From an archaeon HR01 (GTDB lineage Archaea; Thermoproteota; Nitrososphaeria_A; Caldarchaeales; Caldarchaeaceae): DNA of 64,000 nt. This document shows, in pieces, positions 3,313-33,300 of the stretch. Each line of letters opens with the position of its first letter. Position 1 is the first letter of the stretch. The notes beneath the pieces were generated by a model, which saw only the letters and a list, made by a program, of their open reading frames with translations, ran no database searches and was not told where the DNA came from. The position numbers were made by a program, and so were the translations under genes. The stretch is taken from contig BEHD01000002.1 in assembly GCA_002898355.1 (NCBI GenBank), positions 62,001 to 126,000 on the forward strand. The letters are read 5' to 3'.

Positions 3313-3543
3313 ATGGTTGAGATTATTAAGGCTGGGGTACCGAATCCAGTAGCCAAGAGATTCAGGAAAAAAGCGATGGACCAATATGGCTACAGGAAGG
3401 GTGCTGTGAAGAGAGCTATGCAAGACTTGATAACCCGATATATTTCAGCCGGGACGGCTGACTGGAAATCTCTAAAGGGTGTAATACGCTCAGAGCTATC
3501 ATCAATAGAGCTACAGCATAGACTCTGGAAAAGAACAGACTAG
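3313..3543 (+). CDS. small VapB-like antitoxin candidate
   Basis: 76-aa basic protein immediately upstream of a degraded PIN-domain frame. Confidence 0.45.
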   Translation: MVEIIKAGVPNPVAKRFRKKAMDQYGYRKGAVKRAMQDLITRYISAGTADWKSLKGVIRSELSSIELQHRLWKRTD

Positions 3544-3548
3544 CCAGC

Positions 3549-3710
3549 ATGACCTAATAGACACCAACATCTTCCTAGGATTATTCCTAGGTTAGGTAAA
3601 CTCACATGAGTATGAGGAATTTCTAAACGAGGTCTAGCGGGGAGAGATAGAGGCGGCGGTAACAATGTTTACTATTCATGCATGTGAAGCAGTTCTTCAC
3701 CTAACAAAAT
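3549..3710 (+). pseudogene. decayed PIN-domain (VapC-like) toxin
   Basis: Conceptual translation HDLIDTNIFLGLFLG*VNSHEYEEFLNEV*RGEIEAAVTMFTIHACEAVLHLTK*; PIN-like LIDTNIFLGLF start with in-frame TAG, TAG, TGA. Confidence 0.7.
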
Positions 3711-3728
3711 GAGACATAGTTTGCTCCT

Positions 3729-4142
3729 TCACTCGCTGAGTATTTTTATCCCTAGTAGCTTTGATAATGTTTCAGATATTGACGCTATCTCCCTGTCCAG
3801 GGTGGCGATTTTTTCTGCTTTTATCAGATGGCATGTAGCCACATGTAGCAGGTGTAGGGTTTTCAGCCGGATTGATGGCGCTAGTCTAAATGATTGCTTC
3901 AGGGCCTCGTTGAAATCTATCTCCACTCGCTCGGCCCCTATGAGCTCCGCAGAATACATTGCCAGTTGTAGAGGTTTTTCGAGTCCTGCGCGAGAATAGA
4001 CTGACTCCAGCTCGGTCAGGACCAAGGAGGTCACGACGAGCTTCTCTGTTTTGATGTCTTGAATGAGTTTCTCGGCCACTGCGTGTTGAGGGTCCCTCTC
4101 ATCCGCATATGATATTATGAGGCTTGTGTCTACATATATCAA
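3729..4142 (-). CDS. vapC: PIN-domain toxin, VapC family
   Basis: MIYVDTSLIISYADERDPQH...TELESVYSR; overlaps the upstream antitoxin by 4 bp. Confidence 0.85.
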   Translation of the reverse strand: MIYVDTSLIISYADERDPQHAVAEKLIQDIKTEKLVVTSLVLTELESVYSRAGLEKPLQLAMYSAELIGAERVEIDFNEALKQSFRLAPSIRLKTLHLLHVATCHLIKAEKIATLDREIASISETLSKLLGIKILSE

Positions 4143-4393
4143 CGCTCAGCCCGCCCTTCTCTAAGAATCTCTCCCAGCCCACCATGTCTTATCCTATAGC
4201 CCGACCTCCGGAGCCTCTCAACACCAGTGTGTAGGTCTTCCCAGAACCTCACCTCATCAACGGCCTTCTCCAGCCCTTTCTCGATCATCAGGTTTATCGC
4301 ATGAGACCTGCTTCTAGCAATGCCGTAGCCTACCATCTTCTCAGCCAGCTCAAGAACCTCTTTCCTTACCTTTATAGTAATGGGGGTGGACAC
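4139..4393 (-). CDS. vapB: ribbon-helix-helix antitoxin, VapB-like
   Basis: MSTPITIKVRKEVLELAEKMVGYGIARSRSHAINLMIEKGLEKA; coupled to vapC. Confidence 0.8.
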   Translation of the reverse strand: MSTPITIKVRKEVLELAEKMVGYGIARSRSHAINLMIEKGLEKAVDEVRFWEDLHTGVERLRRSGYRIRHGGLGEILREGRAER

Positions 4394-4652
4394 CTATGTG
4401 GACCAAAGAATACTATTCTATACAGCGGCTAATAAACACTCGCTGCCTCTCAACCAGCTGTAGACAACGTAGACCGCGACCAAGACAAACCCTGCCACCA
4501 TAAGTCGACGAACTGCTCGAGAGACATCCAGAAACCTTATCCACACAAGGCGGTATTAGAGGTAGCGGCTGCAACGTTGCAAAGCTTTTGCTTTAGTACC
4601 CCGGGACTGGTGTTATTATATTCTTGGTTCGAGGTATGAGGCAGATTAATTG

Positions 4653-6509
4653 TCAATGGTCTTCAGCCTGCTGGTGTCTGAGCAGGTTCTCGAGACCTGT
4701 CTTGTAGCCATGACTAACATCGCTGCGTGATACTATGCCCACTATGCGTCCTCCGTCTGGGCTGTTCAGCACTGGGAGTCTGCCGATGCCATAGCTTGTC
4801 ATCTTCTCGAAAACTTGATGCAGCGGCTCATCGGGATAAGTCACTATTACATTTTTGCTCATGATTTCCCCCACTTTAACGGAGTCCTGCATCTCGGGAC
4901 GGACTCTCAACACATCTGAGAGCGTGACCATGCCGACGAGCTTCTCCCCATCTCCGACAACGGGGATTCCTCTGAACCCGTTTTCAGACATCATCTTCAA
5001 AGCTTCTTTGACAGTCTTCTCAGGCCTTATCGTCTTCACTTTTCTTGTCATCACGTCTCTAACCCTGATTCTTGACAGGAGCGGGACAGTGTACTCAGCC
5101 ATGTGGGCTGGTGACTCGGCCCGCGTTCTCACCTGACTCGAGTATATTGTGTGTCTACCGGTGACTACGTAGGCGATGACCGTGGATATCATGGAGGGGA
5201 CGAGGAGGCTGTATGTTCCCGTCATCTCGCTGACCATGAGTATGACGGCTATCGGTGCTTTTCCAACACCGCCAAAGAAAGACATCATCCCCACTATGAC
5301 GAAGGGGGCTGGGCCTATGTCGACTGTCAGCCGAAGACTGTCCAAAATCATCCACGTGACTCCGCCCAGCATCCCGCCTATTACGAGAGAAGGGGCGAAA
5401 ACGCCTCCACTGCCACCCGAGCCAACCGTTAAGGAGGTTGCGAGAATCTTCAACGGTACCAAGATCATGAGCACAAGTAGAGGTAACATGGTGAAGTCTC
5501 CCTGAATCATCATCTGGAGCCATCCATAGCCTGTTCCAAGGATTTGTGGGAAGAATATGCCCAACACGCCTAATGCAAGCCCGCCTAATGCTGGCTTGAG
5601 TTGTTTCGGCATGTCGAGTGATGTGAAAAACCGCTTAAACCTGTAGAAAGATTTCACGTAGACTATGCCCACCAAGCCGCAGACAACGCCTAGTAGGCCG
5701 AAGAACACTAGATTAGCGGGGTTGTGGAATGTGTATTGTCCGGTGCTTATGAAGATGGGTTGCCATCCAAAGACAGAAGCGTAGACGCTGTAGCCAATCA
5801 CAGATGATATGAAGGCGGGCACGAGAGCTTGGACTTCGAAGTCCTCCCTGTAGAGGATTTCACCTGCTAGTATAGCGGCGCCCAGAGGTGCTTTGAATAT
5901 TGCACCTATGCCTGCTCCCAGACCTGCTGCGAGAGCGGTTCTTCTATCGCTGGGTGACATTCTCAAGAGTTTGCCTAAGACGGAGGCGAACCCCGCTGAC
6001 GTGAGGGCTATCGGACCCTCCCTCCCAGCGCTGCCTCCAGAGCCTATGGTGACGGCTGAAGCGATTATCTTGAGCAGCGGAACTCTCGCCCTTATCACAC
6101 CCTCCTTGTTGTGGAAAGCATCCACAGCAGCATCTGTCCCATGGCCCTCTGCCTCTGGGGCGAAGGTGTAGACAAGGATGCCGCTGACAAGGCCGCCTAA
6201 TGCCGTGACCAGAGGTATCATGAGCAGGTTTTTGGCTGGAGTGAATTCTTCACCTCCTTCTCCAGCCGGGGACGGTGAAGTGAACCCCGCCAGTCCTTTC
6301 AAGAAAAAAGATGTGGAGAGCTGGAGAGCTATTGTGAACCCTATGGCGGCTAAGCTGGCTACAACGCCTATAGCTATAGCTATCGGAACCCATTTACGCA
6401 GATATCCACGAGAAGGTAGAAGACCCTCAGCGAGCCTCAGAAGCCTCTCCACCATAGTCCCCATGACCACCTGTTTGGACCAATAAACACTATTTTTGGT
6501 TGCTCCCAT
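4653..6509 (-). CDS. ClC-family chloride channel/transporter with C-terminal CBS pair
   Basis: GSGGSAGREGPIALTSAG and GSGGSGGVFAPSL ClC motifs; two CBS repeats (VRDVMTRKVKTI..., VGEIMSKNVIVT...). Confidence 0.93.
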   Translation of the reverse strand: MGATKNSVYWSKQVVMGTMVERLLRLAEGLLPSRGYLRKWVPIAIAIGVVASLAAIGFTIALQLSTSFFLKGLAGFTSPSPAGEGGEEFTPAKNLLMIPLVTALGGLVSGILVYTFAPEAEGHGTDAAVDAFHNKEGVIRARVPLLKIIASAVTIGSGGSAGREGPIALTSAGFASVLGKLLRMSPSDRRTALAAGLGAGIGAIFKAPLGAAILAGEILYREDFEVQALVPAFISSVIGYSVYASVFGWQPIFISTGQYTFHNPANLVFFGLLGVVCGLVGIVYVKSFYRFKRFFTSLDMPKQLKPALGGLALGVLGIFFPQILGTGYGWLQMMIQGDFTMLPLLVLMILVPLKILATSLTVGSGGSGGVFAPSLVIGGMLGGVTWMILDSLRLTVDIGPAPFVIVGMMSFFGGVGKAPIAVILMVSEMTGTYSLLVPSMISTVIAYVVTGRHTIYSSQVRTRAESPAHMAEYTVPLLSRIRVRDVMTRKVKTIRPEKTVKEALKMMSENGFRGIPVVGDGEKLVGMVTLSDVLRVRPEMQDSVKVGEIMSKNVIVTYPDEPLHQVFEKMTSYGIGRLPVLNSPDGGRIVGIVSRSDVSHGYKTGLENLLRHQQAEDH

Positions 6510-6529
6510 TAAGAACTGGCTAAACCTTG

Positions 6530-6638
6530 GGTAGTGTCTGAATAGGGAAGGTATTTAAAGGCTTGACTACCTTTCCCTTCACTGTGATGCCTTCCCCCCT
6601 ATGTTTAGATATTTTTAAGGCGTTATCCGGACACTACC
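6530..6638. mobile_element. MITE-like element with ~15-bp imperfect terminal inverted repeats
   Basis: Left end ggtagtgtctgaata; right end tatccggacactacc (reverse complement ggtagtgtccggata), about 109 bp apart, noncoding between. Confidence 0.6.
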
Positions 6639-6805
6639 AGTCTTCTGTGGGTTCTAAGCCCTCTTCAAGCAGTGACATACTAGGCATATCCACCCACCTA
6701 CAACCCGTGAATGATACATAGGGGACTTTAGAGAATAGGTATGAGCTTATCGAGAACACCTATCATCACTAAACTCCCTAAAACCCCACATACCGAGAGA
6801 AGCCT

Positions 6806-7117
6806 TTACCTAACTCTGATTAGGCTTTCGCGGATGTGGTTTATGTAGGTCACTGCCTCCTCTCTATCAACTATGTGGATCTCGAAGGGATGTGTTTTTG
6901 GGAGCCCAGCTTTCCTCTCGATTTCTAGCTTTATCTCCGTCCTATTTGATTTTTCCGAAGGAACATTCTCCTTGACTATCAGTATGTCTACATCGGAGGC
7001 GGCTATAGCTTCTCCCCTAGGGGCACTTCCGAAGACATACACCTCTACATCGTCTCCTAGTACATCGGCCGCTGCATCGGCTATCTTTCTCGACCACCCC
7101 CTCCATCCCTCAATCAT
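6806..7117 (-). CDS. MNT-type minimal nucleotidyltransferase (HEPN-MNT system)
   Basis: VYVFGSAPRGEAIAASDVDILIV = GSx(n)DxD signature. Start likely the internal Met (MIEGWRGW), slightly overlapping the HEPN stop; ORF track start is 7252. Confidence 0.85.
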   Translation of the reverse strand: MIEGWRGWSRKIADAAADVLGDDVEVYVFGSAPRGEAIAASDVDILIVKENVPSEKSNRTEIKLEIERKAGLPKTHPFEIHIVDREEAVTYINHIRESLIRVR

Positions 7118-7571
7118 CTTCGCTCTCTCTACCCACTCGTCCAATACCCTCAAGTATGCTGATAAGCTCTGAGGCGATGTCAACCAGGTCCTCTGCGTCT
7201 CTCTTCTCATAGCTGCTATAAAAATATCTGCTGGATAAGTAAGCCTCTTCAAGCCGCCTCAGCTCGCTCCACCTCTCATCGATGAACCTCTCTAGCCGCA
7301 GGTCTTTAGCAGCCGCCATTAGGAGTCTCAAGAGGTTTATCACCGAGTATGTCGTGGGATAATCCCCGACCACCTCAAGTAGTTTGGACTTGAGGTATAG
7401 TTGGACTGCCTGCTCAGCGCTAAAGCTAGACAAGTCATAGACCCCACGCCCTAAGAGATACCTCGCGTTATCGAGGAAATCCAGCGCCCTTCTTCTGAGG
7501 AGTTTCGCCTCGTCGATCTTCCCCATGCACTTACTATTTGAAGGCGCAGTGATCCTAGATAAGTTTGTCAT
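7110..7571 (-). CDS. HEPN-domain protein (HEPN-MNT system)
   Basis: AKLLRRRALDFLDNARYLLGRGVYDLSSFSAEQAVQLYLKSKLL, HEPN-like; adjacent to MNT. Confidence 0.85.
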   Translation of the reverse strand: MTNLSRITAPSNSKCMGKIDEAKLLRRRALDFLDNARYLLGRGVYDLSSFSAEQAVQLYLKSKLLEVVGDYPTTYSVINLLRLLMAAAKDLRLERFIDERWSELRRLEEAYLSSRYFYSSYEKRDAEDLVDIASELISILEGIGRVGRESEDD

Positions 7572-8480
7572 CCGAAGTTCTTTTAACTTATCTTTTTGTC
7601 TTGTGGTTTATCCCTTTGGTCGTTAAGCCCTTCTCGAACGCGTAGTTCCTACAAACCTATCGTCATAACCATCTAGAACGCTCAACTGGTCACAAAAACC
7701 CCGACAGTCAAACGGCTCGCCGGTAAGCATCGGCACACCTCTCAGCCATACTTCTTCATCTCCGGCGAAGCATTCTATTAATCGGGAAACTTATTGAGTG
7801 ACCATGTAACCCAAGATCTTTCCCAACAAAGCTTACCCCCGATACTAACCTAAATCGGCAAACCCCCGTTTCTTCTCTGATTTTTCTAGAAATTGTTCCA
7901 CCACAATGTACTCACATGTTGCAGGGGATATAAATGATGTCCTTTCTTGCAAAGCGTCGAAACGTTTTCGGACAAGTTAGGGACGGCTCATTAGGAGCTT
8001 AACCACCCTAACACTCGCGCAGCCTCAGTCATTGAGAGTCTTAAATCTAAGAATGCTCAAGGCTTAGAACCATTTAACAATCAACCAAAAACACCAACAC
8101 TAAGCATGGGGCTCCATTTTTCAGACCTTCCACAATGAAATTGGCCGCGTTTCGTGATGATATGATTGTAGATAGGTGCGTCTGGCTGGGTATTCCTAGC
8201 GTCAGGCTTAGGTGACCGGTTCTGAATCGGAGTTAGCGAACGTCCCATTTATATTTGAGACAGCCGATGGCCAGAGGTTTGAACGTTAAATGAAAAAATA
8301 TGAGAATCTTGGTTCTCTCAGGGATTTTAGGAATATACATTGTGGGCAGATAACTGGATATGGGCCCCTCCCCAGCATCATCGCCTCACTAGCCATCAAC
8401 ACTCCAGTCACTACACGGAATAAATCTCTTCGCTCTTAGGCTTAGCTTTGATATCAAAATCTAGATGTTGATGAAATGGA

Positions 8481-18621: not shown

Positions 18622-19080
18622 CTATGTAGGCGCATTCAACAGGTAGCTAATGGATACGGTCTCCGTGCTTATTACGACCTCGTATGTCAACCCCTTTTCC
18701 CATAACAGGCCAACGTATATTCTTCCAACCGAGTTTCCCGGTATCTTGCAGAGGCTTGCTAGGCAGTAGTATGTGCCAGCCGGTGGGAATAGGGCTGAAA
18801 TAGAGTCGTTGCCGGCGGTGCCGGTGCCGTAGGTGGATGTCTTTAACAACGTCTCCCTGTAATATACTCCATTTATGATAACGGCTTTTATTACGATGCT
18901 TTCGGGTCTAGGGTTATAGAGGCTTACAGTCAGGGTTGGTAAGTCATTGCTAAAGTTATACCCAATCAGATGTAATTCATCTGTCTGGATAGTATGTTGA
19001 GATGCAAGGGGCGTGAAGATGATTGCTAATATTACTATGACGAAGGGAAAAATAATAACATATTTAGAAGGCTCTCCCAT
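18622..19080 (-). CDS. membrane-anchored extracytoplasmic hypothetical protein
   Basis: N-terminal hydrophobic segment; overlaps the cupredoxin-like gene. Confidence 0.65.
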   Translation of the reverse strand: MGEPSKYVIIFPFVIVILAIIFTPLASQHTIQTDELHLIGYNFSNDLPTLTVSLYNPRPESIVIKAVIINGVYYRETLLKTSTYGTGTAGNDSISALFPPAGTYYCLASLCKIPGNSVGRIYVGLLWEKGLTYEVVISTETVSISYLLNAPT

Positions 19081-20086
19081 TCTCCCTAGCCTCGCTCTTA
19101 ATCCGTGACAGAGTCCCTACTGTGTACAGGATTATACCCCATGCAGTCATCACGACAGATGAAACCAACACTATCAGAACCGTGTTGGCTTCGATAGGCG
19201 CACTCACCAGCCTCGGATCCGGCCAATAATTCTGAGACACAACATTTGTCTGAGGAAGTTCGAGCGGAGAGAAACCCTTAGAACTCACCAGAGCCAGTGT
19301 TACATTAGACTGTGTTAGGTCACCGCCACCAGCCACGACATGGATAATGTATCTTCCAGCGCTGGGTGGCTTATACAGTAGTGATGCATTTCCAGAATGG
19401 TCGGTTGTCGCTGAGCCAAGGCTCACCATGCCAAATGATGTCTCTACTAGGAACTCTATCAAGACACCTTCAGCAGGTTCCCCATTCTCCAGCGAGGCCA
19501 CAGCACCTATCAAATAGCCTGACTGGCTGGGGACCATCCATGGGCTCAGTCTTACGTGCTTGACAGCTTGTGAGGATGGTCTCACTTCGAGCAACCCTTC
19601 CTGCAGATTTTCATGACCCCTACATCGCAGAGTGCATCTGATCTTGAAGGCGCCGGGCTTGTTCGCCGTCAGTTCAACTTCTCCAGACTTACTGTCCCGG
19701 TTCAGCCTCACCACGATACCGTATTCGGGTATCTCGATTCTATGGGGATTGTCTATCTGTAGGTCATCGTCACCGTACATAAATTTCAGCCTAATGATGT
19801 CTCCTTGCTCGACTACCACCTGTAGATCCCTTGAACCATTAAAACCGTTTCTAGATACGATTATAAGAAACTCTTTGACTGAGGGTTGCCCATTACTCTG
19901 CTGGATCCTCACTTCAACGGATGATGCGTCACTGAGGGCTAATGGTAGGCTGAGTAGGATTAGCCATAGTATCAGGAGGATGGTTATAGGTCTCAAGGTA
20001 TCAGCGACCTCGCCTGTTCCGCTGTTTTGCTGAGATATTCCCGTCCAGCTTTTGCGAAGACCGTGACCTTGTATCCGCTGCGCCAT
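19064..20086 (-). CDS. membrane-anchored cupredoxin-like protein with CuA/N2OR-like Cys-His motif
   Basis: NPHRIEIPEYGIVVR ... GAFKIRCTLRCRGHENLQEGLLEV; C-terminal TM. Probable TTG start (LRPITILLILWL), making the CDS shorter than the ORF. Confidence 0.65.
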   Translation of the reverse strand: MAQRIQGHGLRKSWTGISQQNSGTGEVADTLRPITILLILWLILLSLPLALSDASSVEVRIQQSNGQPSVKEFLIIVSRNGFNGSRDLQVVVEQGDIIRLKFMYGDDDLQIDNPHRIEIPEYGIVVRLNRDSKSGEVELTANKPGAFKIRCTLRCRGHENLQEGLLEVRPSSQAVKHVRLSPWMVPSQSGYLIGAVASLENGEPAEGVLIEFLVETSFGMVSLGSATTDHSGNASLLYKPPSAGRYIIHVVAGGGDLTQSNVTLALVSSKGFSPLELPQTNVVSQNYWPDPRLVSAPIEANTVLIVLVSSVVMTAWGIILYTVGTLSRIKSEARENGRAF

Positions 20087-21885
20087 AGCTCAAGTTTCGA
20101 CTGTTTAGGTGTGTAAACCAGCGTCGAACCATCCTCTCTATACGACACCTCTAGGCCAGGGAGTGGGTTCTCCGGCGGGGCTTGAGGATACTCAAGCCTC
20201 TGGAGCAGCACCATAACCTTGACAGGCTCGGTATAGAAGCCGATATCCTCCAATTGTGGGTGATCAAAGAGTATGGTGATGAGTCGGGCTTGGACATTGT
20301 AGAAAAGCCCCTTAACATTCCAACCCGCTGCTAATAAGCCCTCGGGCTTCAGCCCCAGTCTCCTAGCATCCCCTAGACTCAGCGGGGAGCCGAGTACCGC
20401 CAAGCTTGGCCGGTAAACTCTTGATGTCTCACGGATGAATTGGCTTAGATACCTGCTTCCTAGCCATCCCAGTGCGAAGCCGGCGAGAGAGCCGACAACC
20501 ATACGTAGGTATGTTCTTCTCTCGGATAAACGCCGCTCCCCCACAGCTCTCTGGGGAACTATTAGCCTCATGGCCGCTGGCGCTTTTTCAAGCTCCTCTG
20601 CCCTCACCTCATGACCAACTGTCTCCCAGATCGAAACTATTGGGAATAGTTTTGCGAATATTGTATATATGAGCATGAAAAGGGCGAAGGCGCCTGCCAT
20701 GATCGACCACTCCACCCAAGTCGGTGTATAGGTCCCCCATGGATATGGTAACTGTGGGACAGAGAGGGTTGGAACAACTATGTTCCATCTCTCCAGCCAC
20801 ATCCCAACATTTATCAGTATTGCCGCGATTACATACTTCACGTCGGAGGTTGAGGAGGAGGCTAAGAGTATGGCCGGTAATATCAGGCCTGCTACTACCT
20901 GAATCCAGAACGTTGTTGCATATGGTCCCCAAAAGAGGGCGGCAAGCCACATCCCCTCCAACTCCGATGTACCTAGGTACTTGTAGCCTGTCACCAAGAA
21001 CTCGTTTATCGTGAAATATATGACGATAATATCTAATGCGAGGAGGAGTTTGGCCATTGTACTGATATGCTTGTCAGAAATAGCCCATCCAATTCCTAGA
21101 ACTCGTCTGGCCAACACCATAATTAACAGTACTGTTGCCACGCCTGAAAGCACAGCTCCCGCTACGAAGTAGGGGCCAAATATCGTGCTATTCCAACCCA
21201 CCCTTAGCGTCATGGCGAAATCCCATGAAACGACTGTGTGGACGGTTATGACCATGAAGACTATGAGGTAAGTGAGAAGCCTCATAAGCCTCTCTAGTAT
21301 CTCCCACTGTTTTGGTGCTCCAGACCAACCAAGTGATAGAATTCTATACAACTTATACTGTATGGAGCCTTTATTTCTCATGGAGTCTCGGAGAAGTGCG
21401 AGGTCAGGTATCATCGGAACGTATAGGTAGAGGGTGGATGTTACAAAGTAAGTGCCTATGCTTATGAGATCCCACACGAGAGGTGACTGAATACGGCCGA
21501 AGAGGAATAGGTTGAGAACCCTGTCTGGTCTCCCTAGGTCTATGAACGGCATCGTCATAGCCACCAGTAGGCTTGCGAATGTGACGGCCTCAGCCATTCT
21601 AGTAACAGGCCTGCGCCACTCACTGCCTGTTAGTCTTAGTATAGCTGAGATCAACGCTCCAACGTGGCTAATCCCTATGAAGAATACGAAATTTATGATG
21701 TATGTCCCCCAGATAACTGTCCGCATGCCTGTAACTCCTAGACCTGTGTTGAGTTGGACGACCCAAGCATAGACACCCCATGCCACGATAGATGTGAGTA
21801 TTGAAAGGGTCAGGTAGAACCAGAAGCCATGTCTTCTCGTAGGTGCTATCAAAGCCTCAGCCTTTAGGTTGAGTTCCATGCTCAT
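19993..21885 (-). CDS. NrfD/PsrC-family polytopic membrane quinone-interacting subunit with long C-terminal extension
   Basis: Many TM segments; NrfD-like order next to an FeS subunit; roughly 190-residue soluble tail. Confidence 0.85.
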   Translation of the reverse strand: MSMELNLKAEALIAPTRRHGFWFYLTLSILTSIVAWGVYAWVVQLNTGLGVTGMRTVIWGTYIINFVFFIGISHVGALISAILRLTGSEWRRPVTRMAEAVTFASLLVAMTMPFIDLGRPDRVLNLFLFGRIQSPLVWDLISIGTYFVTSTLYLYVPMIPDLALLRDSMRNKGSIQYKLYRILSLGWSGAPKQWEILERLMRLLTYLIVFMVITVHTVVSWDFAMTLRVGWNSTIFGPYFVAGAVLSGVATVLLIMVLARRVLGIGWAISDKHISTMAKLLLALDIIVIYFTINEFLVTGYKYLGTSELEGMWLAALFWGPYATTFWIQVVAGLILPAILLASSSTSDVKYVIAAILINVGMWLERWNIVVPTLSVPQLPYPWGTYTPTWVEWSIMAGAFALFMLIYTIFAKLFPIVSIWETVGHEVRAEELEKAPAAMRLIVPQRAVGERRLSERRTYLRMVVGSLAGFALGWLGSRYLSQFIRETSRVYRPSLAVLGSPLSLGDARRLGLKPEGLLAAGWNVKGLFYNVQARLITILFDHPQLEDIGFYTEPVKVMVLLQRLEYPQAPPENPLPGLEVSYREDGSTLVYTPKQSKLELWRSGYKVTVFAKAGREYLSKTAEQARSLIP

Positions 21886-22670
21886 ACAGTAGCCCCCCTT
21901 GGTGGAAGATAGAGGACACGTGTCTCCGTCCCAAGCTCTTCCTTCAGCCTATATGCCCCTCTGCCCTTCAGCATCTCTGTTAGGCGCACAGTCTCATCAC
22001 CATTTGAGACGGCATCTTCAGCCGCATCGCCGAAGAAGAGCGCCCTATGCCCAGCCGCTGTGCATGCCTCGACACATGCAGGCAGCTTGCCTTCTTTGAT
22101 CCTATGTCTGCACCATATACACTTCTCGGCGACCCCTCTCCTATGGGGAATATTGTAATCGGGTGAATAGGGTATGTTTCTTTCTTCCTCTGATACAGGG
22201 GGATCAAACCAGTTGAAGAACCGTCTCTCATAAGGACATGCTGTCAAGCATATTCTACAGCCTATACATCTCTCCTGATCTATCAGAACAACCCCATCCT
22301 CCGAGTAGAAAGTAGCACCCACGGGGCATACTTTAGCGCAGGGAGCGTTTTGACAGTTCTGGCAAAGAACGGGTAGAAAGTGATCTCCCATGTCGAAAAC
22401 CTCTATCCAGGGCTGTCGCCCGCCGTAGCTATGCTCTCCCCATGCCGGAGGCACCCTCATCTCCTCTTGGCAGGCCTCAACACACTTCATACAGCCGTTG
22501 CATCTATCGGTATCTACTACGAAAACCCACTGTCTCCCTCTAGGTGATCCTGCTGCATGGAGGGCAACCTCAGCGGTGTACTGGGGCGTTTCCATTAAAG
22601 GTGATGAGACAGCCCCTGCGACTGCCGTGAGACCTAAGGTAAGGAGGTCACGTCTCGTGAGAGGCTGCAT
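21882..22670 (-). CDS. 4Fe-4S ferredoxin-type subunit (DmsB/HybA/PsrB-like), Tat signal
   Basis: RRDLLTLG twin-arginine start; CNGCMKCVEAC, CQNCQNAPCAKVCP, CIGCRICLTACP, CIWCRHR clusters. Confidence 0.95.
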   Translation of the reverse strand: MQPLTRRDLLTLGLTAVAGAVSSPLMETPQYTAEVALHAAGSPRGRQWVFVVDTDRCNGCMKCVEACQEEMRVPPAWGEHSYGGRQPWIEVFDMGDHFLPVLCQNCQNAPCAKVCPVGATFYSEDGVVLIDQERCIGCRICLTACPYERRFFNWFDPPVSEEERNIPYSPDYNIPHRRGVAEKCIWCRHRIKEGKLPACVEACTAAGHRALFFGDAAEDAVSNGDETVRLTEMLKGRGAYRLKEELGTETRVLYLPPRGATV

Positions 22671-22743
22671 ATCCCGCGCTATTTCTCCTCACCTCCATCT
22701 ACGACAAAAAAAGATGATTGGTGGGGACGCTGATGCATCATAT

Positions 22744-23307
22744 TCATTCAATCACGATAACGTATCCAACTATGTATTCATGGTCAGGTGCGCAGTCATT
22801 TTTATCGTGGTCGAAAGGAATGCCGCACTCGAACTTGAAGACACCAGCTCTGTCAGCTACAAAGCTCACCGTCCTAGTTCTAGCCCCCGGGTCAGGCGCC
22901 TCTTTCTCACCCGGGATCCTCCCCGTATCCACATTGAATGCATCAAGCACTAGGGAGTGGGCGTGCTCATCACTGTTTACTACAGTCAACTGCACTGTGT
23001 CACCCTTCTTCACAACAATAACCGCTGGCTCAAACCTATGGAATTCACCTGCAAGAGTATCCATCTCATCAACCTCCTCAACCACACGTGCCTCATGTAT
23101 CGTCACAGTAAACTTCTGCGTTGTCGGCTCCAATCCCTTACCAGGCGGACCCTGCGGACCGGCGGGACCCTGAGGACCTGGAGGTCCTGGCGGACCTGGG
23201 ACGATAAGGTTGACCGCTATCGCAGTTGCTGCTAGTATCATCGCTACAACAGCCAAAGCCGCTATGGCATTAACTCTTGCCGCCCTTTTTTTCTCCATCG
23301 CAATCAC
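22744..23307 (-). CDS. cupredoxin-like protein with N-terminal TM and collagen-like Gly-X-Y linker
   Basis: Hydrophobic anchor, then GPPGPPGPQGPAGPQGPPGKG, then cupredoxin-like DEHAHSLVLDAF...FKFECGIPFDHDKNDCAPDHEYIVGYVIVIE. Confidence 0.85.
   Translation of the reverse strand: MIAMEKKRAARVNAIAALAVVAMILAATAIAVNLIVPGPPGPPGPQGPAGPQGPPGKGLEPTTQKFTVTIHEARVVEEVDEMDTLAGEFHRFEPAVIVVKKGDTVQLTVVNSDEHAHSLVLDAFNVDTGRIPGEKEAPDPGARTRTVSFVADRAGVFKFECGIPFDHDKNDCAPDHEYIVGYVIVIE
23138..23200 (-). repeat. seven collagen-like Gly-X-Y triplets within the cupredoxin ORF
   Basis: ggt ccg cca / gga cct cca / ggt cct cag / ggt ccc gcc / ggt ccg cag / ggt ccg cct / ggt aag gga on the minus strand. Confidence 0.9.
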
Positions 23308-23452
23308 ACTTATAGTGACGTAGACCGCAACAAAGATGTTTCAACAGTAGCGGCTTTAGAGCTAAGGACAGAGCAAATGTTATTGGCTAACTTCCAGACA
23401 GAAGATCTTTTCTGCTTGAACCTTAATAAGTATATGGACAAGAAATAGGTGG

Positions 23453-24199
23453 ATGGATCCGGATAGGGGTAGGAAAAATGACGGGGATAAGATTAGTGAT
23501 CTTTTTAAGGTGTTGAACCATCCCGTAAGGAGGGAGATAATAAAACTTCTTCATGAGCGGATCGATCTCTCATATACAGAGCTTCTAAGCGAGCTGAAGA
23601 TAGATGAGGGACAGTTCAACTTCCATCTTCGTACCATGAAGGAATTAGTTAATCGCATGGAAGATGGCAGGTATAAGCTAAGCCAGCTTGGCGAGGCCGC
23701 CTACCACATTATAAGCGACGCTGTCCGATCCTTAGGCGCAGTTGACCATCTAGCTAAGCCGTCCATGGGATGGAGAATCGTTCTAAGACGTGTTGCTGCC
23801 TTCATACTAGATGTATCCATCTTCATGATAGCTACTGGTGCGTTTCTCGACGAGAATATCTGGCATCTGGCCCAACTTCACATGACCGATATAAGCAGGC
23901 ACATGACCGAGATCATCAGCGCCTATGCACACATTTTCTTTGCGGCCTTCATAATTTTCACACTGCTAGAAGCATATAAGGGCCAGACCCTCGGAAAATA
24001 CGTGATGGGCATAAGGGCTACAACCATTACCGGTCGTAGGCTTACCATTGTAGAATCGGGGATAAGAAACGCTGGAAAGGTTTTCCTACTGCCGATAGAC
24101 CTGCTGGTCGGGATAATCTTTCTACGGGGGAGGGGTTATCTGAGATTTTTTGACTACTACACGAGGAGTATGGTAAGCCTAGTGGAGGACAGCCGGTAG
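23453..24199 (+). CDS. HTH (ArsR-like) transcriptional regulator fused to RDD membrane domain
   Basis: VLNHPVRREIIKLLHERIDLSYTELLSELKIDEGQFNFHLRTM + GQTLGKYVMGIRATTITGRRLTIVESGIRN. Confidence 0.85.
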   Translation: MDPDRGRKNDGDKISDLFKVLNHPVRREIIKLLHERIDLSYTELLSELKIDEGQFNFHLRTMKELVNRMEDGRYKLSQLGEAAYHIISDAVRSLGAVDHLAKPSMGWRIVLRRVAAFILDVSIFMIATGAFLDENIWHLAQLHMTDISRHMTEIISAYAHIFFAAFIIFTLLEAYKGQTLGKYVMGIRATTITGRRLTIVESGIRNAGKVFLLPIDLLVGIIFLRGRGYLRFFDYYTRSMVSLVEDSR

Positions 24200-24449: not shown

Positions 24450-26402
24450 ATGGTCAACCGCCCGTCGGCGAGTACCGGCTTGGCGGATGTCTCCCGGCTC
24501 TCAGTCGGGGACAAATGGAAAGTCCACCTCGAGCAACGCTTGGACCCAGAATGGTGGGCAAAGCTTTTCGGCAGAATCTATCTATTGACGGACTCTGACG
24601 TGGTCCTCAACGAGCAGCTAACAAATTATGAGGTCGATCTGATGATACAGTTACTTGGGCTTGAGAAAGATGATTCAATATTGGACCTCTGCTGCGGCAA
24701 CGGGAGACATTCGCTGGAACTGGCTAGGAGAGGGTTTAGGAACGTAACCGGGCTTGACTACTCGGAGGAACTTCTCAAAATTGCTCGGGAGAAAGCAGAG
24801 GCCGAACACCTCAAGGTGAGGTTTGCGAGGGGCGACGCACGTAGCCTGCCGTTTCAAGCTAACAGCTTCGACGCTGTGGTCATGATGGGCAACAGCTTCG
24901 GCTACTTCCGCAACCCCCTCGACGACTTTATCGTCCTCAAGCAGGTTCATAGAATCCTGCGTCCCTACGGCAAGTTCATGATAGACATAGCCGACGGCAA
25001 ATACCTCAGGCACAACTATCAGCCGGTGAGCACAGAATCCAAGACGGATGGTACCCTGATAATTAGGGAGAGGGAACTCTCTAGAGACCGTGGCAGGCTC
25101 GTGACACGAGAACTCGTGATAGGGAGAGACGGCGCAGTTGTAGCAGATAACCTATACGCCGTGAGGCTCTACGGGTTTGAGGATATCAAGGCGCTTCTCG
25201 AGAGGGCAGGCTTTACAGGGGTGCTTCTAAGGACTCGGCTAGCCTACGAACCTGAGAGCAACGACCCAGGGATGATGCGGATAAGGATGATCATCACTGC
25301 TTACGCTCAAAAAGAGGAGATGACAAACCATCAACACCGGAGCGAAAAGGTTGTCGTCGTCCTTCTCGGCGACCCGCGTCTCCCGAACCCCGTCAAACCT
25401 AATAGAATCTTCGACGAGGACGACGCCTATGCGGTGTACGAGCTGAAGAGCAGCCTCCACGGAATAAGAGAATACAAGTTCATCTTCGTTGACGACCACT
25501 CAAAGATGATAGAGTTCCTAACGAAAAATAGGGCCAGTATTCATATGGTCTTCAACTTATGCGATGACGGCTTCAAAAACAATCCTGAGATGGAGGCATA
25601 TGTCCCCGCCCTCCTCGAGATGCTTGGTGTTAGATACACAGGAGCAAGGCCGCGTTGTCTCACACTTTGCTACGACAAGGCCAAGGTGAAGGCTATTGCA
25701 TCCTCTATGGGGATACCTGTTCCACACCACACAACTCTATTCAACGGCGACAATGGCCTCACTAAACACGTGAAGTACCCAGTGATAGTCAAGCCTAACT
25801 ACGGTGATAACAGCTGGGGGATCACTGAGAGAAACGTGGTCAGGGACAGGGATGAGCTGGTTTCAGCGATTAGAGAACTCAGGCTGAAGTGGGGTTATTC
25901 TGGGCCTATATTGGTTGAGGAGTTTGTAGAGGGCATGGATCTTACCGTCTCGATACTGGGCAACCCGCCACACGAAGTTGTGCTGCCGATTCTGACAGAG
26001 GATTACTCGAAATTACCTGACGGGCTCCCCAAGATACTTACCTACGCTGCAAAATGGTGTCCTGACTCGCCGTACCGGTTTGTCAACTCGATCCCCGTAG
26101 AGATACCTCATAGGTTGAGGGAGCAGCTTATGCGATGGTGCAGGAGGCTCTTCACAACGTTAGAATGCAGGGACTACGCGCGCTTCGACTGGAGACTGGG
26201 CACAGACGGAGTTCCGAGACTGTTAGAGGTTAACCCCAACCCCGGATGGGTGTGGGACGGACATTTCGCAAAAGCCTGCTTGTCCTTAGGATGGAGCTAT
26301 AGAAGGATGCTGCATGAGATTCTCCGGGCCGCTGAGAAGAGGTATGTGGAAGAGGCCCACGTCACCCAAGAGCTGGCCACCCGTGCTATAGTTCATCCAT
26401 AG
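24450..26402 (+). CDS. fusion: SAM-dependent methyltransferase + D-Ala-D-Ala-ligase-like ATP-grasp
   Basis: ILDLCCGNGRHSLELARRGF (SAM motif I) in the N-half; VIVKPNYGDNSWGI, LVEEFVEGMDL, YARFDWRLGTDGVPRLLEVNPNPGW in the C-half, one frame. Confidence 0.9.
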   Translation: MVNRPSASTGLADVSRLSVGDKWKVHLEQRLDPEWWAKLFGRIYLLTDSDVVLNEQLTNYEVDLMIQLLGLEKDDSILDLCCGNGRHSLELARRGFRNVTGLDYSEELLKIAREKAEAEHLKVRFARGDARSLPFQANSFDAVVMMGNSFGYFRNPLDDFIVLKQVHRILRPYGKFMIDIADGKYLRHNYQPVSTESKTDGTLIIRERELSRDRGRLVTRELVIGRDGAVVADNLYAVRLYGFEDIKALLERAGFTGVLLRTRLAYEPESNDPGMMRIRMIITAYAQKEEMTNHQHRSEKVVVVLLGDPRLPNPVKPNRIFDEDDAYAVYELKSSLHGIREYKFIFVDDHSKMIEFLTKNRASIHMVFNLCDDGFKNNPEMEAYVPALLEMLGVRYTGARPRCLTLCYDKAKVKAIASSMGIPVPHHTTLFNGDNGLTKHVKYPVIVKPNYGDNSWGITERNVVRDRDELVSAIRELRLKWGYSGPILVEEFVEGMDLTVSILGNPPHEVVLPILTEDYSKLPDGLPKILTYAAKWCPDSPYRFVNSIPVEIPHRLREQLMRWCRRLFTTLECRDYARFDWRLGTDGVPRLLEVNPNPGWVWDGHFAKACLSLGWSYRRMLHEILRAAEKRYVEEAHVTQELATRAIVHP

Positions 26403-29891: not shown

Positions 29892-30596
29892 ACGAGGACT
29901 ACCCTTTCCGTCATAAAGGCTGATGTGGGTAGTGTTGCCGGTCATCATAGGCCTCATCAGGAGATGCTGAATTACGCATCGAGAAAGCTGAAGGAAGCTG
30001 AGGAGACTGGTTTATTGGGCTCTGGCTACGTAACCCACTGCGGAGACGACATAATCTTAGTCATGACGCATACTAAGGGAGAAAACAATCCCGAGATACA
30101 TGGACTTGCTTGGACGATATTCAAGGAAGTTACGGAGAAGGTGTCTAAGAAATTGAAGCTCTATGGTGCTGGTCAGGACCTATTGAGTGATGCTTTCAGC
30201 GGAAACGTTAGGGGATTGGGACCCGGTGTTGCAGAGATCGAGTTTAACGAGCGTGGTTCTGATCCTATAGTCATCTTCGCTGCTGATAAGACGGAGCCTG
30301 GTGCTTGGAACATTCCGTTGTATAGGATATTCGCATCACCAGACAATACTGCTGGATTGGTCATAGACCCAAAGCTCCATAATGGGTTCAAATTCGAAGT
30401 TCTAGACTTAATCGAATCGCAAGTCGTGACGTTGAAGACGCCCGAAGAGATGTATGACTTGATTGGTCTGATCGGAACGCCAGGCAGGTATGCGATTTCT
30501 AAGGTTTATCGGGCAATCGATGACGAACCCGCAACCGCAGCCAGCACCACCCGTTTGAGCTTGATAGCAGGCAGGTATGTCGGTAAAGAGAATTAA
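29892..30596 (+). pseudogene. truncated duplicate of FBP aldolase/phosphatase
   Basis: About 93% aa identity by eye to 32155-33300 over ~220 aa; ATG position reads ACG (29892); ends ...GRYVGKEN*. Confidence 0.85.
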
Positions 30597-32154: not shown

Positions 32155-33300
32155 ATGAGGACTACGGTATCGGTCATAAAGGCGGATGTTGGTAGTGTGG
32201 CTGGCCATCACAGGCCGCATCAAGAAATGCTTGACTATGCTGCTAGAAAGCTGAAGGAAGCTGAGGGGACAGGTCTATTGGGGTCTGGCTACGTAACCCA
32301 CTGCGGCGATGACATCATATTGGTTATGACCCATACGAAGGGAGAGAACAATCCTGAGATACATGGCCTTGCCTGGTCTATATTCAAAGAGGTTACTGAT
32401 AAAGTATCTAAGAAGCTCATACTATATGGCGCTGGCCAGGACCTGCTCAGCGATGCATTCAGCGGAAACGTTAGAGGTCTTGGACCTGGTGTAGCTGAGC
32501 TAGAGTTTGATGAAAGAGGTTCTGACCCGGTTGTTGTATTCGCAGCAGATAAGACAGAGCCAGGCGCGTGGAACATCCCACTATACAGAATCTTCGCATC
32601 ACCAGACAACACGGCAGGCCTAGTCATAGACCCAAAACTACATGATGGGTTCAAGTTTGAGGTATTAGACCTGATAGAATCTCAAGTCGTAACTTTGAAG
32701 ACTCCTGAGGAGATGTATGACTTGATTGGGTTGATTGGGACGCCAGGCCGCTACGCCATAAGCAAGATCTATCGTGCAATCGACGACGAGCCAGCAGCAG
32801 CCGCAAGCACCACGCGTTTAAGCCTAATCGCTGGCCGCTATGTCGGTAAAGATGACCCAGTTCTGGTTATTCGTTGTCAAGCCGGTTTTCCTGCTGTGGG
32901 GGAGGTGTTGAGTGCGTTCGCTGTACCACCCCTTGTTTCTGGCTGGATGAGGGGTAGTCATAGGGGGCCTTTAATGCCTGTCTCCTTCCGTAAAGGCCAG
33001 AATGTGGTAAGTTTCTTCGACGGCCCGCCGAGGGTCATGGCTATGGGCTGGCAGGTTTCGAACGGGCGCTTGGTCGGTGTGGATGGTGTTGAGCCCGCCG
33101 ACCTCTTTGAAGATCCCTTCTGGGAGTACGCCAGACAAAAGGCCGCTGAGCTTGCTGTCTATCTGAGGACGATGGGTGAATTCGAGCCCGCTAGACTCGG
33201 CCACGAGGAGATGGAATATACAACGCTTCCGCAGATACTGGAGAGGCTAAAACCACGTTTCAGGCCGGTGGAGGAGAAGCATGCGGCAAAGTCTGCCTAA
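32155..33300 (+). CDS. fbp: archaeal fructose-1,6-bisphosphate aldolase/phosphatase
   Basis: MRTTVSVIKADVGSVAGHHRPH...THTKGENNPEIHGLAW...GRYVGKDDPVLVI. Confidence 0.95.
   Translation: MRTTVSVIKADVGSVAGHHRPHQEMLDYAARKLKEAEGTGLLGSGYVTHCGDDIILVMTHTKGENNPEIHGLAWSIFKEVTDKVSKKLILYGAGQDLLSDAFSGNVRGLGPGVAELEFDERGSDPVVVFAADKTEPGAWNIPLYRIFASPDNTAGLVIDPKLHDGFKFEVLDLIESQVVTLKTPEEMYDLIGLIGTPGRYAISKIYRAIDDEPAAAASTTRLSLIAGRYVGKDDPVLVIRCQAGFPAVGEVLSAFAVPPLVSGWMRGSHRGPLMPVSFRKGQNVVSFFDGPPRVMAMGWQVSNGRLVGVDGVEPADLFEDPFWEYARQKAAELAVYLRTMGEFEPARLGHEEMEYTTLPQILERLKPRFRPVEEKHAAKSA

Follow-up and report, generated by a model that had tools for sequence, protein, structure and literature searches.

What an NrfD-family membrane subunit and its iron-sulfur (FeS) partner do when they are encoded beside copper-type proteins and no catalytic enzyme is the question raised by a locus on contig BEHD01000002.1 of the Caldarchaeaceae archaeon HR01 from a hot spring. 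The locus was analysed in a 64-kb window, i.e. the whole stretch of DNA shown above, to which coordinates refer unless another locus is named; the window lies on contig C2 of the 1.76-Mb host genome (G000). The module consists of five minus-strand genes (18622-23307), which all have intact open reading frames and are tightly packed; neighbours overlap or, in one case, lie 73 nt apart. An initial annotation of the window had proposed that the module may link quinone and copper proteins of the periplasm by electron transfer. At a probability of roughly 60%, we read the locus as encoding a minimal membrane quinol:copper-protein oxidoreductase without a catalytic enzyme; electron transfer between quinone and periplasmic copper, as proposed, is supported at the sequence level by an ActC-type quinol pocket and by a stalk shared with DOMON-headed proteins.

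Gene 1 (22744-23307) encodes an N-terminal transmembrane (TM) segment, a collagen-like GPPGPPGPQGPAGPQGPPG linker and a cupredoxin domain, and gene 2 (21882-22670) a Tat-exported electron-transfer subunit with four predicted [4Fe-4S] clusters (DsrO/ActB FeS-like). Gene 3 (19993-21885) encodes an NrfD-family, ActC/DsrP-like and putatively quinone-interacting membrane subunit of 630 residues, including a C-terminal extension of about 190 residues. Gene 4 (19064-20086) combines a putative CuA-like cupredoxin head with an Ig-like stalk and a C-terminal TM anchor, and gene 5 (18622-19080) encodes a small protein with one N-terminal TM segment, an extracytoplasmic domain and two Cys. While genes 4 and 5 were hardly or not recognised by Pfam and NCBIfam models (gene 5 had no family match in either), the annotated gene set and order were borne out by the open reading frames, by the models for the other genes, and by recurrence in a genome from another Caldarchaeales family (G024, 95% complete). 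The small membrane-anchored protein of the initial annotation exists as gene 5, but fell outside the range assigned to the locus (19064-24199).

Gene 3 matched the NrfD family (PF03916) over residues 52-374 with 110 bits (gathering score 25.8, E 2e-31), and its residues from about 440 to 630 had no Pfam match, in agreement with the annotated tail; this extension is absent from relatives and probably adds one TM segment (467-485 in G024). The closest solved relatives were four ActC chains of alternative complex III (ACIII), with E-values of 2e-59 to 2e-68; ActC 6f0k_C was matched at 2e-68, as against only 3e-38 for the molybdopterin-linked host paralogue. Gene 3 was mapped onto Rhodothermus ActC, with the functional residues taken from PMC5928083. 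Eight of the nine residues of the quinol pocket are identical (W82, I86, F89, P136, L166, D169, V250 and D253), and the ninth, H139 in ActC numbering, is Asp in gene 3, as it is in most NrfD homologues of the set. Asp at the D253 position was found in 8 of 63 NrfD homologues, namely the four ActC chains, two ACIII-like loci (L050 and L042) and the two cupredoxin loci. Acidic pocket residues have been tied to quinol deprotonation in ACIII (PMC5928083), and this rare Asp provides the best sequence evidence that gene 3 may oxidise quinol. The cytoplasmic half-channel of ActC is identical in 13 of its 14 residues, so that coupling of gene 3 to proton movement is possible. As a separate observation, the L042 locus of a Chloroflexota genome (13113-16999), in which Asp253 is present, comprises genes for FeS, ActC-like NrfD, ActD-like and small c-type cytochrome proteins and seems to be a reduced ACIII; the stretch examined there ends at the FeS gene.

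The channel and pocket also bear on the direction of electron flow. In reverse, some unknown periplasmic donor would reduce the copper proteins, and electrons would pass through the FeS subunit to quinone, as in QrcABCD with cytochrome c3. The related QrcCD pair does reduce menaquinone with protons from the cytoplasm (PMC13059093), and conservation of the cytoplasmic half-channel in gene 3 would suit such a role. The extra pocket Asp, however, was common only to the quinol-oxidising ACIII group among the 63 homologues. Copper sites, moreover, normally have higher potentials than quinones, and we regard quinone reduction by the module as unlikely.

For gene 2, the annotated Tat signal and four [4Fe-4S] motifs were both found, with an RR signal and 16 Cys, all of which are kept in 21 homologues. 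It matched PDB entry 6f0k_B at E 4e-27, and its top NCBIfam model was DsrO, at 188.8 bits (cut-off 200).

The next-nearest relatives of the NrfD and FeS subunits are encoded at loci L105, L106 and L107 of three other Thermoproteota genomes, with DOMON or EB_dh heads in place of the copper head. At L105, a DOMON-Ig-TM protein lies upstream of FeS and NrfD; at L107, an Ig-TM fragment comes after a DOMON protein; and L106 has an EB_dh protein together with the same divergent HTH-RDD regulator as the module. Heme b is the usual cofactor of such DOMON and EB_dh domains. The stalk and anchor of gene 4 are homologous to the L105 DOMON protein (55 bits, E 6e-13, shuffled maximum 19.6), which a gene 4 profile matched at 1e-6. 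Because this Ig-TM stalk is common to both, gene 4 probably serves as the electron acceptor of the complex and carries a head that can be exchanged. In a combined FeS and NrfD tree, the cupredoxin and DOMON/EB_dh loci formed one clade with support of 100/99, also without long rows; FeS alone gave 98/96, and NrfD alone a weak 70/58. In another NrfD tree the window pair branched apart, with the joint clade not rejected (approximately unbiased test, p 0.32). No molybdopterin gene was visible at the three loci, whose contigs are 3.9-11.8 kb long and in part stop at the module, and neither the NrfD C-terminal extension nor a second cupredoxin was seen there. Two further archaeal loci touch on these domains. 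In genome G147, a single protein contains both a CuA-like cupredoxin domain and an EB_dh heme-b type domain (L135:1342-2436, contig C3), a fusion that gives a further sign of the two carriers being paired in archaea. In G319, the gene for a CuA-motif protein precedes a Fer4_5 (NapH/NosR-like) membrane gene (L124:1375-3300, contig C230), and the same genome harbours the EB_dh-type locus L106.

The putative copper ligands of gene 4 are His115, Cys151, Cys155 and His158, the last three within the stretch Cys151-Thr-Leu-Arg-Cys155-Arg-Gly-His158-Glu-Asn-Leu161; His115 and this stretch are kept in G024, with Ile in place of Thr152. The CTLRCRGH motif and cupredoxin-like head pointed out in the initial annotation thus stood, and the protein is now resolved into head, stalk and anchor. 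Its open reading frame overlaps gene 3 by 94 nt, and the true start probably lies downstream of the first ATG. Subunit II of the host haem-copper oxidase carries the classical CuA motif C-x3-C-x3-H-x2-M (CAEFCGRGHYSM), whereas the spacing in gene 4 is C-x3-C-x2-H, with x2 instead of x3. The x2 spacing, with Met, also occurs in two solo cupredoxins (C-x3-C-x2-H-x2-M; L121:1382-3337 and L122:1339-3309), which directly precede Vgb-lyase/SGL-type beta-propeller genes in a layout that recalls a split N2O reductase. Descent of the gene 4 head from COX2 was considered and dropped, as L121 and L122, its nearest relatives, adjoin beta-propeller genes and not COX1; only the motif is claimed. Foldseek matches of the gene 4 model (LacZ, tail-tip proteins) were uninformative at a pLDDT of 46.

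Gene 1 passed the Pfam Cupredoxin_1 cut-off (28.2 against 27 bits). Both orthologues keep His115/His117, Cys161, His167 and Cys172-x3-His176-x2-Ile179 (Met in G024); this end is CuA-like, but the first Cys (Cys161) lies eleven residues upstream. The cupredoxin part of the annotated collagen-linked cupredoxin therefore holds. A functional collagen repeat does not, since G024 has an unrelated linker without the repeat in its place, and the linker, judged by this replacement, is a mere spacer. Genes 1 and 4 are thus CuA-like by motif, and copper binding is putative in both.

Gene 1 could itself be catalytic, i.e. a copper enzyme of the nitrosocyanin, NirK or NosZ kind with a nitrogen oxide or an oxygen species as its substrate, and the module would then be a quinol-driven reductase. 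Its top sequence matches in the PDB were indeed NirK and nitrosocyanin, a low-confidence structure model (built from a two-sequence alignment) matched NirK, nitrosocyanin and NosZ, and the Cys161-x10-Cys172 loop with its conserved extra His167 is unusual. The sequence likeness, however, is at fold level (E of about 1e-8, far under family cut-offs), and the protein has a single cupredoxin domain, without the second domain for type 2 copper. Its Cys-x3-His-x2-[Ile/Met] end is similar to the CuA sites of electron-transfer proteins, and no counterpart of gene 1 was seen at the DOMON-type loci, short as these are. A catalytic gene 1 is accordingly quite improbable in our view, and a role as electron carrier is preferred.

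The absence of a catalytic subunit, as annotated, was confirmed: no molybdopterin, multiheme or hydrogenase genes lie near the module in the window, and the G024 module locus likewise lacks a molybdopterin subunit. In the whole G024 genome no PF00384 protein was detected by a search that gave hits in 11 of 14 control genomes; at 95% completeness, there is a small chance that a PF00384 gene escaped detection. As G024 keeps the module without any such protein, a molybdopterin partner does not appear to be needed, and one encoded elsewhere was rejected on this ground. The initial annotation would have been undermined by homologues consistently found beside a molybdopterin subunit. For distant homologues this is the case: those of Chloroflexi (35-46% identical to gene 3) typically adjoin one, often together with multiheme cytochromes, and two further host NrfD genes (C12 and C11 loci) each have a molybdopterin neighbour. 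For the orthologous locus in G024 it is not.

Since most NrfD/FeS pairs, including the Chloroflexi and host examples, adjoin a molybdopterin subunit, the module could also form the membrane portion of a bigger enzyme, with the gene for the catalytic subunit, molybdopterin-dependent or other, at a distant site in the genome. Five molybdopterin genes were found in the host, two of them beside NrfD (C12, C11), two with FeS and a short membrane subunit, and one truncated; the four non-truncated ones each have their own FeS and membrane partners. The lone truncated gene, which is Tat-exported and of type II (NarG/EbdA-like), lies at the end of host contig C28 (L082:5183-6979) and speaks for such a partner, but to our knowledge type-II enzymes are not normally served by NrfD. 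With G024 having the module and no PF00384 protein, this explanation is largely refuted for molybdopterin enzymes, and very improbable overall.

The G024 locus comprises five genes in identical order behind an HTH-RDD gene, flanked by metE and OsmC as in the host. Protein identities between host and G024 are 52, 76, 61, 45 and 31% for genes 1 to 5, and synonymous sites are saturated. With five genes, regulator and flank shared at this distance, the module has persisted unbroken for a long time, beyond chance, and the neighbourhood conservation that the initial annotation called for is thus seen in G024. A full-length gene 4 was found in 2 of 398 sampled Thermoproteota genomes, i.e. in the cupredoxin pair; with none elsewhere in this sample, the copper-headed form is rare.

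Among known systems, ACIII (ActABCDEF, a quinol:cytochrome c/HiPIP oxidoreductase) is the nearest working analogue, with an ActC-type subunit, Asp253 and Asp169 in the quinol pocket of both, a relay of four [4Fe-4S] clusters, and electrons delivered to a carrier rather than a substrate enzyme. The initial annotation had listed ACIII with Psr and Dms among complexes with a catalytic subunit; ACIII itself is a quinol:electron-carrier oxidoreductase. The module differs from ACIII in lacking the molybdopterin-like domain of ActB, gene 2 being FeS only and no such domain occurring at the locus or in G024. Neither cupredoxin locus encodes a CxxCH protein (ActA, ActE), ActD, ActF or a second NrfD, and the module has Asp in place of the pocket His139, as well as copper proteins and the NrfD C-terminal extension. 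PsrABC, DmsABC and TtrABC share the FeS and NrfD architecture, but their molybdopterin subunit is absent from both loci and from the G024 genome. QrcABCD menaquinone reductase resembles the module in its NrfD/FeS dimer that moves electrons between quinone and a periplasmic carrier; it works in the opposite direction, its models scored far below cut-off (QrcC 130 against 400 bits, QrcD 55 against 570), and neither the hexaheme QrcA nor the molybdopterin-like QrcB is encoded at the module locus. DsrMKJOP likewise has an exported FeS and NrfD pair with a periplasmic carrier (DsrJ), which is a triheme protein and not a copper protein. That the module is the DsrOP-type half of such a sulfur complex, with copper proteins replacing DsrJ and with DsrMK encoded elsewhere, is the least plausible of the alternatives: among NCBIfam models, DsrO and DsrP match genes 2 and 3 best, and the DsrP of an archaeal DsrMKJOP-like cluster (L109) is 43% identical to gene 3, but both models fall below their curated cut-offs (DsrO just so, DsrP at 101 against 350 bits), DsrM, DsrK and DsrJ are absent at the host and G024 loci (whole genomes were not searched), and L109 lacks the pocket Asp and falls outside the cupredoxin and DOMON/EB_dh clade. 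In the L109 cluster (3490-8322), DsrM and DsrK are apparently fused into a protein of 668 residues. The module would thus be neither ACIII, Psr/Dms nor DsrMKJOP, and appears as a fresh variant on the NrfD/FeS chassis.

As a quinol:copper-protein oxidoreductase, the module would bind quinol at the outer side of gene 3, in the ActC-type pocket suggested by residue conservation. Electrons would pass to the four [4Fe-4S] clusters of gene 2, by analogy with ACIII and Psr structures, and from there to gene 4, whose CuA-like head would be positioned above the complex by the Ig stalk and TM anchor that gene 4 shares with the DOMON protein. Gene 4 may then reduce the flexibly tethered gene 1, which would in turn donate to an acceptor; one candidate is the CuA subunit of the haem-copper oxidase whose genes lie at another site in the host genome. 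Electron direction, copper occupancy and final acceptor are what we infer from these data.

Several points weigh against this assignment. Gene 4 has Leu where CuA has Met, its head gives a weak cupredoxin match (E 0.036 for the window protein, no match in G024), its AlphaFold model is poor (pLDDT 46, two-sequence alignment), and the copper ligands are drawn from two sequences. Only two cupredoxin-headed loci were found, and the DOMON-type contigs are short, so that a neighbour could be missing there. Placing gene 4 before gene 1 in the chain is conjecture, and the evidence for an oxidase comes from the host genome only. The host also encodes a Rieske protein and cytochrome b, and a second quinol oxidase is thus not strictly needed; the module would be an additional, not the sole, quinol-oxidising route.

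Next to the module, the gene for an HTH-RDD membrane regulator (23453-24199, plus strand) was recognised by PF06271 and HTH models. It is divergent, as annotated, and likewise divergent in G024, and it likely regulates the module. Farther along the window, a methyltransferase is fused to an ATP-grasp domain of the D-Ala-D-Ala-ligase type (24450-26402), here in an archaeon, and two open reading frames with a common segment GSVAGHHRPHQEML (29925-30596 and 32155-33300) seem to represent a single gene, copied once in part and once in full.

In the literature searched, no description came up in which NrfD is combined with cupredoxin or blue copper, with DOMON, or with Aigarchaeota, so that the DOMON/EB_dh-headed loci too appear undescribed there, and the main text of a survey of 4,545 NrfD-like sequences does not contain the words cupredoxin, copper or DOMON (PMC8076601), consistent with the initial suggestion that the system is possibly undescribed. 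Tentatively, and with somewhat less than even confidence, we propose a new archaeal class of complex-III analogues, in which an ActC-like/FeS core would oxidise quinol and reduce a one-electron head carried on a common Ig stalk; this head would be exchangeable, CuA-like copper in Caldarchaeales and heme b DOMON in other Thermoproteota, and neither molybdopterin nor c-type cytochrome would take part. NrfD subunits occur across respiration, and the way in which they couple quinone chemistry to energy conservation is still disputed, with ACIII regarded as a pump and Qrc as a redox loop. If the reading is true, the module would be the smallest quinol:carrier complex of the NrfD kind and would offer a simple means of addressing this question. 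The exchange of heme b and copper heads on one stalk would show modular rebuilding of respiratory complexes, and the organism would possess a quinol-to-oxygen route that uses copper carriers instead of c-type cytochromes.

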